A stretch of DNA of 64,000 bases, taken from an uncultured Candidatus Entotheonella sp. (GTDB taxonomy: Bacteria > Tectomicrobia > Entotheonellia > Entotheonellales > Entotheonellaceae). This document shows, in pieces, positions 38,002 to 44,243 of the stretch. Under the pieces are notes generated by a model that did no database searches, was not told the origin of the DNA, and saw only the letters and a list, made by a program, of their open reading frames with translations. The DNA lies in assembly GCA_958295825.1 (NCBI GenBank), contig OY282375.1:3209489-3273488 (forward strand). The letters are read 5' to 3'. The number at the start of each line of letters is the position of its first letter. The first letter of the stretch is position 1. Made by a program: the position numbers and the translations under genes.

Positions 38002-38130
38002 CGAGCCGAGAGGGTCCAACTGCTTCACCACTGCCTCCGTCTGTTGAGATAGCATTTCGGCGGGCGCCAAAGCACTGCTGATTTCAGGACTGCTCAGAGA
38101 GAAAAATCATTGGGGTATGGAAAGCGGGGA

Positions 38131-38159
38131 ATCATATAATGCGTGCCCAAAGTCGTCAA
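38131..38159 (-). promoter_or_regulatory. Sigma-70 promoter for aspS
   Basis: On the minus strand TTGACG (38159-38154) and TATGAT (38136-38131) are separated by exactly 17 bases. The predicted start near 38124 leaves a leader of about 120 bases. This is probably the head of the long minus-strand run. Confidence 0.7.
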
Positions 38160-38259
38160 GATAACCTCTCGCCCGAAAGCCTCGAGCATGGCCTGTGCCG
38201 GGTGAGTGTCAGACCTCCGTGCGCACTCACTTGAGCCAGTAATCGTCGGGTGCGAGTCG
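38160..38259. other. Gap between aspS promoter and the three-gene operon
   Basis: No gene is seen between the aspS promoter and the plus-strand promoter at 38260. A minus-strand frame across 38227-38472 has no recognisable features. Confidence 0.4.
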
Positions 38260-38287
38260 TTGACCCTCGCAAAACTTTAAGTACACT
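38260..38287 (+). promoter_or_regulatory. Candidate sigma-70 promoter of the HEPN/KGGVGR operon
   Basis: TTGACC (38260-38265) and TACACT (38282-38287) are spaced by 16 bases on the plus strand. The leader to the first ATG would be about 108 bases. Confidence 0.5.
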
Positions 38288-38401
38288 GCCTCAGACCTTG
38301 GAACGCCATCCGGGCTGCACAGGTGCGTTGCACAGCAGTAAGACAGACAAGTCGTCAGTGCGCGTCCGGTGCCGCGCAGTTGACTATGGGGAATCCCGTT
38401 C

Positions 38402-38824
38402 ATGACGTATCCTGCCGATTTTACCGACGCCCATCGCCGACACTGGAAGGATGCCGAATTGTTGTTTGCCAAAAACCGCTGGGCAAATGCGGATCAACTG
38501 TATGGGTTCAGCGCGGAGTGCGGTTTGAAGACGGTTATGAAGGCGCTGGGGATGTGGATCGATCCTGGCACCGGGAGCCCCAAGAAGAAGTACCGACAGC
38601 ACGTGCAGGACCTCTGGCCAGTATTCGCTGGCTTCGCGCAAGGCCGCAAAGGGGGACGATACCTCCACTTGCTTCCGGGCGGCTCACCGTTCGCAAGTTG
38701 GTCACACCACGATCGTTACGGACATCACGGCAACTTCTCGAAACAGAGCGTTGCACCGCATCGCAAAGCGGCGTGGGAAATTCGTCGCATGGTGCGACGT
38801 GCAATCCAGGATGGTCTGTTATGA
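38402..38824 (+). CDS. HEPN-like small protein, first gene of a three-gene ATPase operon
   Basis: The 140-residue protein is rich in helices. WANADQLYGFSAECGLK (residues 27-43) resembles the long HEPN helix that normally reads YLAGYAVECALK. The C-terminal part, FASWSHHDRYGHHGNF then a charged helix, matches the W-x-RY element of HEPN families. A canonical RNase Rx4-6H motif is not clear. Relatives of this kind may carry misleading methyltransferase names; no SAM-binding motif is present here. Its TGA stop overlaps the next ATG (ATGA), so translation is coupled. It could be a toxin or RNA-binding partner of the two ATPases that follow. Confidence 0.65.
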   Translation: MTYPADFTDAHRRHWKDAELLFAKNRWANADQLYGFSAECGLKTVMKALGMWIDPGTGSPKKKYRQHVQDLWPVFAGFAQGRKGGRYLHLLPGGSPFASWSHHDRYGHHGNFSKQSVAPHRKAAWEIRRMVRRAIQDGLL

Positions 38825-40146
38825 ATGCCAACTTCGTTTCATTCGACGAGATGCAGGACCGGGTTGCTGGCGTGCTTAGGGCCACGGAAGAAACAATGCC
38901 GGACGCTATCGACCGTTTGTATTTGGTTCGGGATTTGTTCGGCCGCGTGCGCATATCCGTTTCGGATGCCGTTGAAGATGACGAGTCATGCCAGAACGCG
39001 CTAAAGCACTTCGCCAGAAACCTGCACCGGGAGCTTGGCCCACACGGCTACAGCGAGGAAGAAGCGGTTCTGTTCGTGGATGAAGAAATGCTCGAAGAGA
39101 TCAGTGAAGCTGCGCGGCCGCTTGTCTCGAGTGGACAGACAGAGCACACCATGTCCAGGGCGTACTGGGTCGAACGTTTGGTAACCGGCCATGGCTGGTG
39201 GTCACTGACAGCACGTCCAGAAGCCGAGGCGCAGCGATTCACACTATACTCGGTCAAAGGCGGCGTCGGACGCAGCACGACCACAGCCGTGCTCGCGTGG
39301 CACTTGGCGCGCAACGGCCAACAGGTGCTGGTGATCGACTTGGACCTGGAATCGCCGGGGCTGTCGTCCGCGATGCTCGATGCGCGTCAGCTCCCGCAAT
39401 TCGGGGTTGCCGACTGGTTCGTGGAGGATTTGGTTGAGCAGGGCGACCGCGTTGCTGAAGCGATGACCGTCGCGCCGGCATGGGCGCAAGATTTGGACGG
39501 TGATATCCGTGTGGTCCCCGCATACGGCCGCGAACCTGGCGAGTATCTGGCCAAGCTTGGCCACGTGTACATAGACACCCACGAGTCTTGGGCAACGCGC
39601 CTCAATCGTCTGGTGTCGCGGCTTGAGGATGCGTACAAACCATCAGTTGTCCTATTGGAAAGTCGCAGCGGTCTACACGACGTTGCGGCGGCGACCGTCA
39701 CGGACCTGCATGCCCAGGTACTGCTTTTTGCCCTCGACTCGGACAGCCATTGGGCCGACTATACCATCCTGTTTCGGCACTGGCAGGAACAGGAGGTGGC
39801 GGCAGCGATCAGGGAACGGTTGTCCATCGTGTCGGCGCTGACTCCAGAACTCGACACGGAAGCGTACTTGCAACGGTTCCGGGGACGCGCTTGGAATCTG
39901 TTCCGCGACCATCTCTATGACGTCGTGCCACCGTTCAACGCCGATAGCGACCTCTTCTCGTTTGACCTTCCCGATGACGGCGCTCCCCACGACCCGCTCG
40001 CTATCCACTGGACGCGAGGCCTTGCCGCGGGTGCGTCGCTGCGTAACTTGGAGCAGACGCAGACGACTGTGAGGCAAGCTTATGAATCGTTCCTGGCGCG
40101 TTTCGACACCTTGGTGGCGTTCGACGACAACGGAGAAGCAAGATGA
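38821..40146 (+). CDS. ParA/MinD-like ATPase with variant KGGVGR P-loop
   Basis: The 441-residue protein has an N-terminal region of about 135 residues without known motifs, rich in acidic residues. A deviant-Walker ATPase domain follows: YSVKGGVGRSTTTAVLAWHL (from residue 144) and VLVIDLDLESPGLS. The signature lysine of the ParA/MinD family is kept, but the P-loop lysine is Arg (KGGVGRS rather than KGGVGKT). VLLESRSGLHDVAAATVTDL takes the place of the usual Walker B DxxG region. The ATGA overlaps at both ends tie it to its neighbours. A KGGVGR variant group of AAA ATPases is recognised, but its role is not established to my knowledge. Confidence 0.8.
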   Translation: MNANFVSFDEMQDRVAGVLRATEETMPDAIDRLYLVRDLFGRVRISVSDAVEDDESCQNALKHFARNLHRELGPHGYSEEEAVLFVDEEMLEEISEAARPLVSSGQTEHTMSRAYWVERLVTGHGWWSLTARPEAEAQRFTLYSVKGGVGRSTTTAVLAWHLARNGQQVLVIDLDLESPGLSSAMLDARQLPQFGVADWFVEDLVEQGDRVAEAMTVAPAWAQDLDGDIRVVPAYGREPGEYLAKLGHVYIDTHESWATRLNRLVSRLEDAYKPSVVLLESRSGLHDVAAATVTDLHAQVLLFALDSDSHWADYTILFRHWQEQEVAAAIRERLSIVSALTPELDTEAYLQRFRGRAWNLFRDHLYDVVPPFNADSDLFSFDLPDDGAPHDPLAIHWTRGLAAGASLRNLEQTQTTVRQAYESFLARFDTLVAFDDNGEAR

Positions 40147-41597
40147 GCGGCGGGATTGATCGAGACATGGCACGACAGGCGCTCGCCAGTCTGCCGGAAG
40201 GAACGAGCTCCGGTGAGCCGCCGACGCTAAAGCAAGTGTACCTGCCACGCTCCCACGCCAAGGCGCTAGACATGAATAACCCACTGGTGACAGGCATGCG
40301 CGGGGCCGGCAAGACCTTCTGGTGGAGCGCGCTGCAGGAACGGTCTGTACGTCAACTCGTAGGTCAAGCTGGCGCCTCGTCCACGTTGAACGAGAGAACT
40401 GAAGTACGAATCGGCTTCGGTTTGAAACCGGCGATAGATGAATATCCAAGCAAGGACGTCCTGCATCAACTCATGAACCAGAGCATCGAACCGAGGATCA
40501 TCTGGCGAACCGTGCAAGCTCGACAGCTCGCTCCGGACAACCATCCGATTCGTCAACAAGAGCGGTGGCATGAGCGGACGGTGTACGTCAAGCAGAATCC
40601 AGAGACGATCGACCGTCTGTTTCAACAGCGTGACGCGGAATTCGACCGCCAGGGCACCTATTTCCTTCTTCTCTTCGATGCCCTCGACCGCTGCGCCGAC
40701 GACTGGAAAGAAATGTACCCCGCAATCCGAGGTCTTCTGCAAAACGCACTTGATTGGCTCTCGTTCCGGCGTCTCCGGGTAAAAGTATTTCTGCGCTCCG
40801 ACCAGATCGCCGAAAATGAGGTTGCCAACTTCCCGGACGCCTCGAAAGTTCTTGCTTCAAGCGTTGAGTTAAACTGGCCTCGAAACGAGCTGTACGGCCT
40901 TTTGTGGCATTACTTGGCAAATGGACAAAACGGCGCGAAGTTTCAGACGTTTCTTGCCTCTGACAAGTCATGGCCTTGCGTCGAGGTTGGTGATCAACAT
41001 GTCGTAACTGTGCCGCGTCCCCTCAGAGAAGACCGTCAACGCGAGAAGTTCCATGACATGGCCGGTCCATGGATGGGTCGCGGTCCGAAACGCGGCTTTC
41101 CGTACACCTGGATACCCAATCACTTGGGCGACACCGAGGGCAGAGTAAGTCCACGCTCTTTTCTCAAAGCGCTCCGAATGGCTGCCGAGAACACTGCTGA
41201 CCAGTATCCCGACCATGCCAAAGCTTTGCATTTCGAGAGCATCAAGCGAGGTGTGCAAGAAGCGTCGAGGACGCGGGTGGATGAGGTCCGAGAGGACTAC
41301 CCGTGGGTGGATAAGGTCCTACAGTCGCTCGCCGGCCTGGTCGTTCCCTGTGAGTTTGCCGAGATTGAGGCACGCTGGAACGCCGATGGCGTCCTTGATC
41401 GTCTAACGGACGATGTCGACCAAAATGCCGTGAAGTTGCCCCCCAGCCGAATCGACAGGGGCGCCAACGGTGTTCGGGAAGATCTCGAATCGTTACGGGT
41501 GTTCTGGAAGGCGCAGGATGGCCGGGTGAACATTCCTGATGTCTTCAGAGTAGGCTATGGCCTTGGACGACGGGGCGGCGTCAAGCCTGCTAAGTAA
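40143..41597 (+). CDS. P-loop NTPase, third gene of the HEPN/KGGVGR operon
   Basis: The 484-residue protein has Walker A TGMRGAGKTFWW (from residue 50) and Walker B YFLLLFDALDRC (about 173-184), with VKVFLRSDQIAE about 35 residues later as a likely sensor segment. This order suits STAND or AAA-type ATPases. The C-terminal ~200 residues are helical with no recognised domain; a short tail KVLQSLAGLVVPCEFAEIE may form a small winged-helix-like end. Its ATG overlaps the preceding TGA, so all three genes are made together. No transmembrane segment or nuclease motif is visible. Function unknown. Confidence 0.75.
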   Translation: MSGGIDRDMARQALASLPEGTSSGEPPTLKQVYLPRSHAKALDMNNPLVTGMRGAGKTFWWSALQERSVRQLVGQAGASSTLNERTEVRIGFGLKPAIDEYPSKDVLHQLMNQSIEPRIIWRTVQARQLAPDNHPIRQQERWHERTVYVKQNPETIDRLFQQRDAEFDRQGTYFLLLFDALDRCADDWKEMYPAIRGLLQNALDWLSFRRLRVKVFLRSDQIAENEVANFPDASKVLASSVELNWPRNELYGLLWHYLANGQNGAKFQTFLASDKSWPCVEVGDQHVVTVPRPLREDRQREKFHDMAGPWMGRGPKRGFPYTWIPNHLGDTEGRVSPRSFLKALRMAAENTADQYPDHAKALHFESIKRGVQEASRTRVDEVREDYPWVDKVLQSLAGLVVPCEFAEIEARWNADGVLDRLTDDVDQNAVKLPPSRIDRGANGVREDLESLRVFWKAQDGRVNIPDVFRVGYGLGRRGGVKPAK

Positions 41598-41714: not shown

Positions 41715-44243
41715 ATGCTGAGCCGTCGAGCAGTGGCCGTCGCCGTGCAGCGCCTGGAAGGCTGCGCGGCCCGCGTGTGGGAGCGGCCGCTGCTCTGTCT
41801 GGCGGCGGGACTACTGGGCGGCAGCGCTGTCAATGCGGTGATCCGTCTTCCCGCCCCGTTGGTCGTCGGCGTGCTGGCAGCGGTGGGGCTGGGGCTTCTG
41901 CCCCGCTGGCCCTGCGTTGCCGCGCAGCGGTGTTGCTGGGTGGTGTTTCTCGGATCGCTGCTGACCTTTCTGCAGCTGGGCTGGCAGGGTCTGCCGTTAC
42001 CGCCTGAGCACGTGTCGCACGAGTTGTCGGAACGCCCCGAGCGCTGGCACGTCGAGGGCGTTGTTGACCGCGCCGTGGTGCCGCGCGGCGACCGCCAGCT
42101 CGTGTACCTGCGCCTGCGCCGGTTGCAGCGTCAGGGGCAACCGTGGAAGGCGGTCAGCGGGTCGGTCCGCGTCAACGTGCATGCTGACAGCCTGCCGTAC
42201 CTGCCCGGCGACGTCATACGGGTGAACCGGCTGCGGCTGCACCGGCCGCGCACCGCGGGTAATCCGGGGGCCTTCGACTTCCGGGGCCTGATGCAACGGC
42301 GGGGCATCCATGCGGTGGGCGGCGTCGCGAACCCGCAACGGCTGCATCTGCTGCGTCGGGCGGACGGTTTTGGCTTGGCACGCGCCTTGGAACGCTGGCG
42401 GCAACACCTGCGCATAGAGGTAGAAAGCCTCCTGCCGGCGCCGTACAACGCGGTTTTTCTGGCCATCGTGCTTGGTCACAAGGGCTCGCTGCCAGCGGAC
42501 GTCCAAACCGCTTTTCGCGCCGCCGGGGCAGCGCATCTGCTGGTCGTTTCGGGGCTGCACGTGGGCTTCATCGCGGCGGCCACGCTATTCGGCTGGCGGC
42601 AGCTATTGCGCACGGTGCGCAGCCGCCTGCCGCGCGCCTGGCTGCCCGGCTGGCGCCCGACGCCCCTCGCCGCCGCGCTCAGCCTGCCTCCGGTGCTGCT
42701 GTATTGTTCCCTGGTCGGCTGGCGCGTCCCCACCCTGCGCGCCGCGCTGATGGTCGGCAGCTACTTGCTGGCCTTGTGCATCGAACGACGCAGCGACGCC
42801 CGCTACGCCCTGGTGCTGGCAGCCGTGATCATCGTCCTTGTCGATCCGTGGGCTTTCGCCGACGTGGGCTTTCGGCTGTCTTTCGCAGCGGTGGCCGCCA
42901 TTCTGCTGGCGACCGCCGCCGTCCTGAAACCGCCCCCAACGCCACCAGGCAGGGGGCAGCGCCTCCGTCGCTACCTGCTGACGTATGTCACGGCAAGCGT
43001 GGCGGCCTATCTCGGCACGCTGCCCATCCTGGTGCAGGCGTTCCACACGGCGCCGACTTTCGGCATCCTGACGAACCTGCTCCTGCTGCCTCTCGCCGGC
43101 CTTCTCGTACCGGCCGGCATGCTGGCCCTCGGCTTGCTGGTGCTGTGCCCCAACGCAGCACCCGTTGTCTTCAGTGCCCTTGCCTACCCGATCTCGTGGC
43201 TCGTCGGCCTGACGGAACTGGCCGCCGGTCTGCCGAACGCGCAGTTCCATCTTGCCTCGCCCTCGGCCCTGATGATCGCGGCCTATTACGGCGTCCTGGC
43301 CAGCCTTGTGGTTGCCGGACGCGGGCCGAAACGGTTGACGTATGCCGGCGCCTGCGTGTTGGCGCTGCTGCTGGGCGCGGGCTGGCAGGTCCTGGAAACC
43401 CGCAGCGACCGGCTGCGCGTCACCTTTCTGGACGTCGGCACGGGGGACGCGATTCTGGTGCAGGCGCCCGGCAATCACAACCTGCTGATCGACGGCGGCG
43501 GCACTTATGACGGTCGTTTCGACGTCGGCGCCCGCGTCATTGCGCCGGTGCTCTGGAACCGCCACGTCCGGCGCTTCGACCTCGTGGCCCTGACCCACCC
43601 GCATCCGAACCACGCGCGCGGTTTGGTGAGCGTGCTGCGGCTGTTCCCAGCCGAGCACCTGCTGACCAACGGCACCCCGATGCGGTACGACTACCTGCGC
43701 GACATCCTCGCCGCCGGCGAGCGCTGGAACACGCGGCATCACACGGCCCCGAACGGCCGGCGTGAATGGCGCTGGGGCGACCTGCGGCTCACCGTGCTGT
43801 CGCCACCGAGCGCCGCCGAGCAAGCCCACGTGCCTTGGAACCCCAAGTCGGAAAACGACCGCTCACTCGTCATGCTGCTGCAATACGGCGAGGTGCGCAT
43901 GCTGCTGACCGGTGACATTCAACACGCCACCGAGCACTGGCTGGTAGCCCACCGCGACGATCTGCGCGCCGACGTCTTGCAGGTCCCGCATCACGGCAGC
44001 AAAACCTCTACCCTGCCTAACTTCGTGCGGCACGTGCGGCCCCGCGACGGCATCATCTCGCTCGGCGCCGGCAACCCCTACGGCCATCCTCACCCGCGCG
44101 TGCTGAGCACCCTCGACGCGCAGCAAGTCAGGGTGTGGCGCACCGACACCCACGGCGCCGTCACCGTCAGCACCGACGGCTCGACGTATGAAATTCTCAC
44201 CCATTACCCAGTTCCGCGCGGCGGTCAAGCGTCCTCCGATTGA
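41715..44243 (+). CDS. comEC: DNA internalisation competence protein ComEC/Rec2
   Basis: The 842-residue inner-membrane channel carries transforming single-stranded DNA into the cytoplasm. An N-terminal DUF4131 region with hydrophobic helices (residues about 20-100) and an OB-like stretch precede the Competence domain (AHLLVVSGLHVGFIAA, VGWRVPTLRAALM, DPWAFADVGFRLSFAAVAAI). The C-terminal metallo-beta-lactamase-like domain has FLDVGTGDAILVQAP, LTHPHPNHARG (canonical HxHxDH has HxHxNH here) and LQVPHHGSKTS. It stands alone after the three-gene operon. Other competence genes are not in the window. Confidence 0.92.
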   Translation: MLSRRAVAVAVQRLEGCAARVWERPLLCLAAGLLGGSAVNAVIRLPAPLVVGVLAAVGLGLLPRWPCVAAQRCCWVVFLGSLLTFLQLGWQGLPLPPEHVSHELSERPERWHVEGVVDRAVVPRGDRQLVYLRLRRLQRQGQPWKAVSGSVRVNVHADSLPYLPGDVIRVNRLRLHRPRTAGNPGAFDFRGLMQRRGIHAVGGVANPQRLHLLRRADGFGLARALERWRQHLRIEVESLLPAPYNAVFLAIVLGHKGSLPADVQTAFRAAGAAHLLVVSGLHVGFIAAATLFGWRQLLRTVRSRLPRAWLPGWRPTPLAAALSLPPVLLYCSLVGWRVPTLRAALMVGSYLLALCIERRSDARYALVLAAVIIVLVDPWAFADVGFRLSFAAVAAILLATAAVLKPPPTPPGRGQRLRRYLLTYVTASVAAYLGTLPILVQAFHTAPTFGILTNLLLLPLAGLLVPAGMLALGLLVLCPNAAPVVFSALAYPISWLVGLTELAAGLPNAQFHLASPSALMIAAYYGVLASLVVAGRGPKRLTYAGACVLALLLGAGWQVLETRSDRLRVTFLDVGTGDAILVQAPGNHNLLIDGGGTYDGRFDVGARVIAPVLWNRHVRRFDLVALTHPHPNHARGLVSVLRLFPAEHLLTNGTPMRYDYLRDILAAGERWNTRHHTAPNGRREWRWGDLRLTVLSPPSAAEQAHVPWNPKSENDRSLVMLLQYGEVRMLLTGDIQHATEHWLVAHRDDLRADVLQVPHHGSKTSTLPNFVRHVRPRDGIISLGAGNPYGHPHPRVLSTLDAQQVRVWRTDTHGAVTVSTDGSTYEILTHYPVPRGGQASSD

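Follow-up and report, generated by a model that had tools for sequence, protein, structure and literature searches.

HEPN-domain proteins have previously been connected with ParA-like ATPases. In a survey of HEPN families, a gene pair encoding a HEPN protein (MAE_18760) and a ParA/Soj ATPase was postulated to be a toxin and its antitoxin (Anantharaman 2013, PMC3710099). The same survey observed that AbiV and AF0298 keep the Arg of the canonical Rx4-6H motif and lose its His, and that a different His, located between the second and third helices, could form an alternative active site (PMC3710099). A further point of reference is the PADLOC catalogue, whose PDC entries are candidates proposed by guilt by embedding (Payne et al.) and are mostly unvalidated (PMC12988326; PMC10855318). 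Here we analyze a trio of genes, designated A, B and C, located in a 64,000-nucleotide stretch of contig OY282375.1 (hereafter the window) from a sponge symbiont, an uncultured Candidatus Entotheonella sp.

The trio is real, conserved and mobile, and it belongs to the catalogued candidate defense system PDC-M28. Proteins A, B and C match the PADLOC-DB v2 models PDC-M28A, PDC-M28B and PDC-M28C in the same order (E values 2.3e-47, 3e-137 and 6.1e-173), and the genes are contiguous and run in the same direction, as membership of PDC-M28 requires. The initial annotation, made from the sequence alone, had called the trio uncharacterized. This is correct with respect to function, as a literature search found no published function for PDC-M28, but the trio itself is not new, since PADLOC already lists PDC-M28 as a phage-defense candidate. 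On balance, we favor the interpretation that the trio is an anti-phage module of the abortive-infection or toxin-antitoxin kind, with a HEPN effector kept in check by a pair of ATPases that are slow or locked. PDC-M28 has so far been listed by name only, and the sequence evidence presented here gives it a testable mechanism.

Like the postulated HEPN-ParA pair, the trio places a HEPN-like gene beside a gene for a ParA/SIMIBI ATPase. It differs from that pair in the motif KGGVGR of B and in having a third gene, C, which either lies beside B or is joined with it in one chain. The MAE_18760-type HEPN family was not among the Pfam matches of A and its relatives. Compared with PDC-M28 copies embedded in other systems, the window copy lies alone between aspS and comEC.

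Co-inheritance and mobility of the three genes

Using C as the query, 80 genome loci were fetched; family searches within the same class/phylum covered 5 genomes. The order A-B-C is found in 70 of the 80 loci. Four of the other 10 end at a contig edge; the remaining six show decay, rearrangement or absence of A. A plasmid search with A returned 11 records, every one of which also carries C, and C likewise accompanies all well-covered matches to B (14/14). In 369 sampled gammaproteobacterial genomes, all eight places with a strong match to A adjoin C, one of them with an in-frame A-B deletion, and there is one strong C without A, near a contig start. No strong A match without C was seen among the genome loci, the 11 plasmids and the 369 gammaproteobacterial genomes. 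C without A occurs at L029, L065, L082 and L090, in S. clavuligerus and in Streptomyces NBC_01216. That A is never found without C while C is sometimes found without A is the pattern expected of a toxin needing its keepers. The distance matrices of A, B and C from 77 loci correlate at r = 0.86–0.92 (permutation maximum 0.31). Co-occurrence of all three homologs, which the initial annotation had named as a check, is therefore tight.

The A-B and B-C junctions, at 38821 and 40143, are both ATGA overlaps. Overlaps of −4 predominate at the two junctions among 85 relatives; because they recur in most of these, they are not due to chance. B and C form a single chain in L037 and in distant relatives from Nostoc (L148), Pantoea (L151) and a genome of the Entotheonella family (L022). 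Two-gene versions, consisting of a small HEPN-like gene and a B-C fusion of 890–928 residues, are located at L148:5177-8289, L151:4212-7460 and L022:3185-6318. The existence of B-C fusions in relatives argues that B and C work together. Other KGGVGR proteins have a long tail and a different partner: on Massilia and Rhizobium plasmids (L149:4428-6848 and L150:4489-6866), a gene resembling an MqsA-family antitoxin is followed by a long-tailed KGGVGR ATPase, whereas the partners of B are A and C.

Several copies are altered or multiplied. At L029:7546-8499, a zinc-ribbon-like protein takes the place of A before intact B and C. At L034:4929-8728, about 2.1 kb interrupt gene A and leave B and C open; a further trio in that genome (L086) is broken. 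Two separate in-frame deletions (L024:9462-10001 and L177:1820-2497) join the start of A to the end of B; the W100/R105-Y106 region of A and the P-loop of B are gone, and C is intact. Pseudomonas lopnurensis harbors two divergent copies of the trio, face to face (L073:3529-11433), and Lamprocystis (G029) harbors three, one of them decayed (L158, L180 and L181).

The trio is horizontally mobile. In two genomes of the same family (G001 and G003), aspS and comEC are adjacent without it, and in G003 the trio is found elsewhere. Its G+C content is 58.4%, compared with 63.5% (standard deviation 1.9) for stretches of the same size in the window. Phyla are intermixed in a tree of 95 C proteins, with the Entotheonella pair placed among Acidobacteriota, Pseudomonadota, Spirochaetota and others, and the trio is patchily distributed, occurring in about 2% of the gammaproteobacteria sampled. 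Two conjugative plasmids of Enterobacter carry the trio beside a tyrosine recombinase gene, one of them together with a gene for a TIR protein. The Enterobacter trio was not found in complete E. coli genomes at megablast sensitivity, and neither the search of phage genomes with B and C nor that of BFVD with A gave a match. Purifying selection acts on the three genes within the genus, where the ratios of nonsynonymous to synonymous substitution rates (dN/dS) are 0.19, 0.24 and 0.19; these values rule out decay of the whole operon.

Some copies are embedded in known defense operons. BREX type 2 operons enclose the trio in Sphaerotilus, Thiodictyon and Streptomyces (L009, L010 and L016) and also at L095 and L098, and it adjoins PglX/PglZ or BrxC of other BREX types at L050 and L053. 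This amounts to at least 7 of some 90 loci, which falls short of a regular presence in BREX loci.

Folds and conserved residues of the three proteins

The AlphaFold2 model of A has a mean predicted local distance difference test score (pLDDT) of 96.2 and a predicted template modeling score (pTM) of 0.91. The best folds found for it in the PDB with Foldseek are HEPN (1o3u, 1wol, 1ufb, 2q00 and 2hsb), and its HEPN matches comprise TM0613 (probability 0.92), ST0689, TT1696, P95883, sacsin and AF0298 (template modeling (TM) scores 0.59/0.65). The HEPN-like character that the initial annotation had proposed for A is borne out by these matches, and the model is not unrelated to HEPN. Among 77 relatives of A, 29 match Pfam HEPN_AbiV and 10 match HEPN, weakly in both cases. 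A sequence search of solved structures with A found no meaningful relative. Conserved positions are R13, H14 and D17; E39, C40 and K43; H67; W100; and R105 and Y106. Of these, E39, H67 and R105 are invariant in the 77 relatives. The model has helices at residues 27–48 and 68–80, placing E39 in helix 2 and H67 between helices 2 and 3 (codons 38516-38518 for E39, 38600-38602 for H67 and 38714-38719 for R105-Y106).

From conservation and the model we infer that A is a HEPN protein of the AbiV/AF0298 type, and it is probably an RNase with an alternative active site consisting of E39, H67 and R105. The likeness to this type lies in the loss of the Rx4-6H His, the retention of the Arg, the alternative His and the acidic residue in helix 2; AF0298 (2hsb) also gives the best TM-scores for A. 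The differences are that the individual Pfam AbiV scores inspected lie under the cut-off and that AbiV has been described without two ATPase partners.

Protein B matches NCBIfam NF047398, the KGGVGR-motif variant AAA ATPase family, at 175.4 bits (cut-off 90) and contains the family motif. Its P-loop, KGGVGRS (residues 146–152, within SVKGGVGRSTT), keeps the signature Lys (K146) and has Arg (R151) in place of the P-loop Lys in 49/49 relatives, so that the canonical ParA/MinD form KGGxGK[ST] is absent. Also invariant in these 49 are D173 and E177 of the motif DLDLE and the R and G of D/E-x-R-x-G. The deviant P-loop reported by the initial annotation is thus present and fixed, but it characterizes a known family and is no isolated peculiarity. 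The Arg is invariant across phyla, and for this reason an origin by sequencing error or decay was rejected. The NF047398 entry describes a domain without a function; B has in addition a conserved N-terminal domain of about 130 residues and is tied to A and C. A sequence search of solved structures with B gave only generic ParA/ArsA matches over the P-loop, and in the literature search the string KGGVGR turned up only in a review of mushroom lectins. In ParA proteins, the signature Lys bridges ATP-sandwich dimers. By analogy, B would bind ATP with impaired turnover.

The model of C (pLDDT 93.7, pTM 0.92) has its closest folds in ORC2/Cdc6 (1w5t, E value 1.5e-6) and BrxC (9zdx, 3.3e-5), both at a Foldseek probability of 1.0, with further matches to RdrA, NOD2 and the Dark apoptosome. 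The TM-scores of these matches are low (0.17–0.39, with ORC2/Cdc6 and BrxC at about 0.3–0.4), and the kinship to ORC2/Cdc6 and BrxC is therefore remote. The Walker A and Walker B motifs initially read in C, GMRGAGKT and LLLFDALD, are both present. Walker A is intact, with G51, G54, G56 and K57 invariant in 72/72 relatives. In Walker B, D179 is likewise invariant (72/72), and the next position, 180, is mostly Ala (66/72), with Glu in a single relative (1/72), so that the acidic DE pair is missing. As modeled, C is probably a remote ORC/Cdc6- and BrxC-like AAA+ protein with a predicted C-terminal winged helix. BrxC/PglY and ORC/Cdc6 are its nearest solved folds, but they have no sequence match to C, which also differs in the Glu-to-Ala change of Walker B and is far smaller than BrxC. 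A sequence search of solved structures with C found no meaningful relative, and the similarity to the Sll1717 P-loop ATPase (NCBIfam NF047389) is partial, at 58.1 bits against a curated cut-off of 75. Given the fixed changes at catalytic positions in B (Arg) and C (Ala), the two ATPases are probably slow, ATP-held latches rather than motors.

Proposed restraint of a HEPN effector and its alternatives

In the mechanism that we propose, A would be the HEPN effector, probably an alternative-site RNase. Its regulator would be a single unit made up of B, as an ATP-sandwich dimer of the ParA type, and C, as an AAA+ protein resembling ORC/Cdc6 and BrxC. At rest, ATP-bound B and C would hold A inactive. 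The trigger could be a change brought about by the phage, either contact of C with DNA that is foreign or replicates abnormally or an altered nucleotide state, and the freed A would then cut RNA and stop the growth of the cell or the phage. The ATPases would accordingly be the components that sense phage or control A, as the initial annotation had suggested. The mechanism predicts that B and C act jointly and that A needs both for safe expression. It identifies A as the likely toxin and singles out the key residues E39, H67 and R105 in A, R151 in B and A180 in C. If correct, it would extend the 2013 idea of an alternative-site HEPN to a widespread mobile system and assign a role to the fixed KGGVGR motif, which defines a named NCBI family without a function.

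A number of observations weigh against this interpretation. The Foldseek E values of A are not significant, even though its top matches are HEPN. The HEPN_AbiV scores inspected for individual relatives range from 13 to 22 against a gathering threshold of 27.1, and the window A has no match. The canonical Rx4-6H motif is absent from the window A, and a His at a fitting distance from the invariant R105 is present in only 14/77 relatives. The asymmetry between A and C is partly biased, as the genome loci were fetched with C. One study found other PADLOC candidates, PDC-M63 and PDC-S04, to be inactive (PMC12409345). Finally, many copies are solitary among unrelated, often housekeeping genes, and a comparison of nearest neighbors with random genes revealed scattered defense-like matches in both and no clear enrichment. 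The defense association made in the initial annotation thus stands as far as the PDC-M28 match and the BREX embedding are concerned, but the count in defense islands that it had proposed did not favor it, most copies lying outside such islands. Taken together, BREX embedding and many solitary copies without enrichment make the trio look like a self-contained cargo that is not tied to islands.

The same evidence bears on other explanations. A could be a catalytically dead HEPN that serves as an RNA- or nucleotide-binding sensor or adaptor, with the antiviral activity residing in C (through BrxC-like DNA engagement) and driven by B. The missing Rx4-6H, the sacsin HEPN among the fold matches of A and the resemblance of C to BrxC and ORC agree with this, as does the view that HEPN domains lacking conserved polar residues serve for binding (PMC3710099). 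However, the strictly conserved R13, H14, D17, E39, K43, H67, R105 and Y106 look like an active site and fit the alternative one, and no nuclease domain is evident in C, whose Walker B is altered; we consider this explanation unlikely. Less likely still is a stress-responsive toxin-antitoxin module with a cellular role, such as dormancy, instead of an antiviral one. Its anatomy would be the same, HEPN-ParA toxin-antitoxin pairs have been proposed earlier (PMC3710099), and it would suit the solitary sites beside ordinary genes, but the copies lying within BREX operons, or next to integrases on conjugative plasmids, speak against it, and the patchy presence (the 2% noted above) suits defense better.

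Two further explanations fare worse. BREX is known to carry auxiliary HEPN effectors (PMC12839542), and with copies in BREX operons at 7 or more loci the trio might be a BREX accessory, either regulator or backup, and not stand-alone. This is quite improbable, as the large majority of some 90 loci are away from recognizable BREX genes and four of the BREX-2 copies form one clade, implying few embedding events. The ParA-like B, the ORC/Cdc6-like C and the location of some copies on plasmids could also indicate a plasmid-style partition, replication or maintenance module. We give this very little credence: the unit contains no ParB gene, normal ParA turnover depends on a P-loop Lys that is missing in B, and the copies are mostly chromosomal and at many sites, including BREX operons.

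Within the favored anti-phage interpretation, a more specific version is conceivable, if rather doubtful: that the trio represents a distinct class, ATP-latched HEPN immunity. A SIMIBI dimer with impaired hydrolysis would join an ORC/Cdc6-like AAA+ protein without the Walker B Glu in holding an alternative-site HEPN RNase. Release of the RNase would fall to the ORC-like subunit, which would sense the state of foreign DNA or of DNA under replication.

Coordinates and surroundings of the trio

The positions of the features are listed in Table 1. The layout first described, three genes joined by two overlaps between aspS and comEC, agrees exactly in its coordinates. aspS lies upstream and is divergent, with its start at 38070; comEC lies downstream on the same strand, at 41715. 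The claim that the trio has its own promoter was not supported: there is one 9-of-12 sigma-70-like match (38260-38287), and the region has 3 matches compared with 1.2 expected in shuffles.

Table 1. Features of the PDC-M28 trio, in window coordinates
Feature	Position	Strand	Evidence
Gene A (PDC-M28A), 140-residue HEPN-fold protein, predicted effector	38402..38824	+	PADLOC, AlphaFold2, Foldseek, conservation
Gene B (PDC-M28B), 441-residue ParA/MinD-like KGGVGR-variant ATPase	38821..40146	+	PADLOC, NF047398
Gene C (PDC-M28C), 484-residue P-loop ATPase, predicted C-terminal winged helix	40143..41597	+	PADLOC, AlphaFold2, Foldseek
Deviant P-loop of B, KGGVGRST	39256..39279	+	K146 and R151 in 49/49 aligned relatives
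Walker A of C, GMRGAGKT	40293..40316	+	G51, G54, G56 and K57 in 72/72
Walker B of C, LLLFDALD, catalytic Glu replaced by Ala	40665..40688	+	Conservation in 72 relatives
Intergenic upstream part of the inserted segment, aspS start to gene A	38071..38401	no strand	aspS/comEC junction without the trio in two relatives

The same trio is carried by a congeneric Candidatus Entotheonella metagenome-assembled genome (OX639990.1, L023), with 92% identity in C. The evidence suggests that the aspS/comEC gap is a spot open to insertion. In G003, a TnpB-like gene (L127:2551-3937) is found in the gap that holds the trio in Entotheonella. The window comEC is intact, unlike that of the congeneric genome G002, where a transposase-bearing insertion of about 1.47 kb splits the gene (L129:6621-8091). 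The ends of this insertion are inverted, 9 bp of the target appear to be duplicated, and its site corresponds to the window comEC near 42004-42012.

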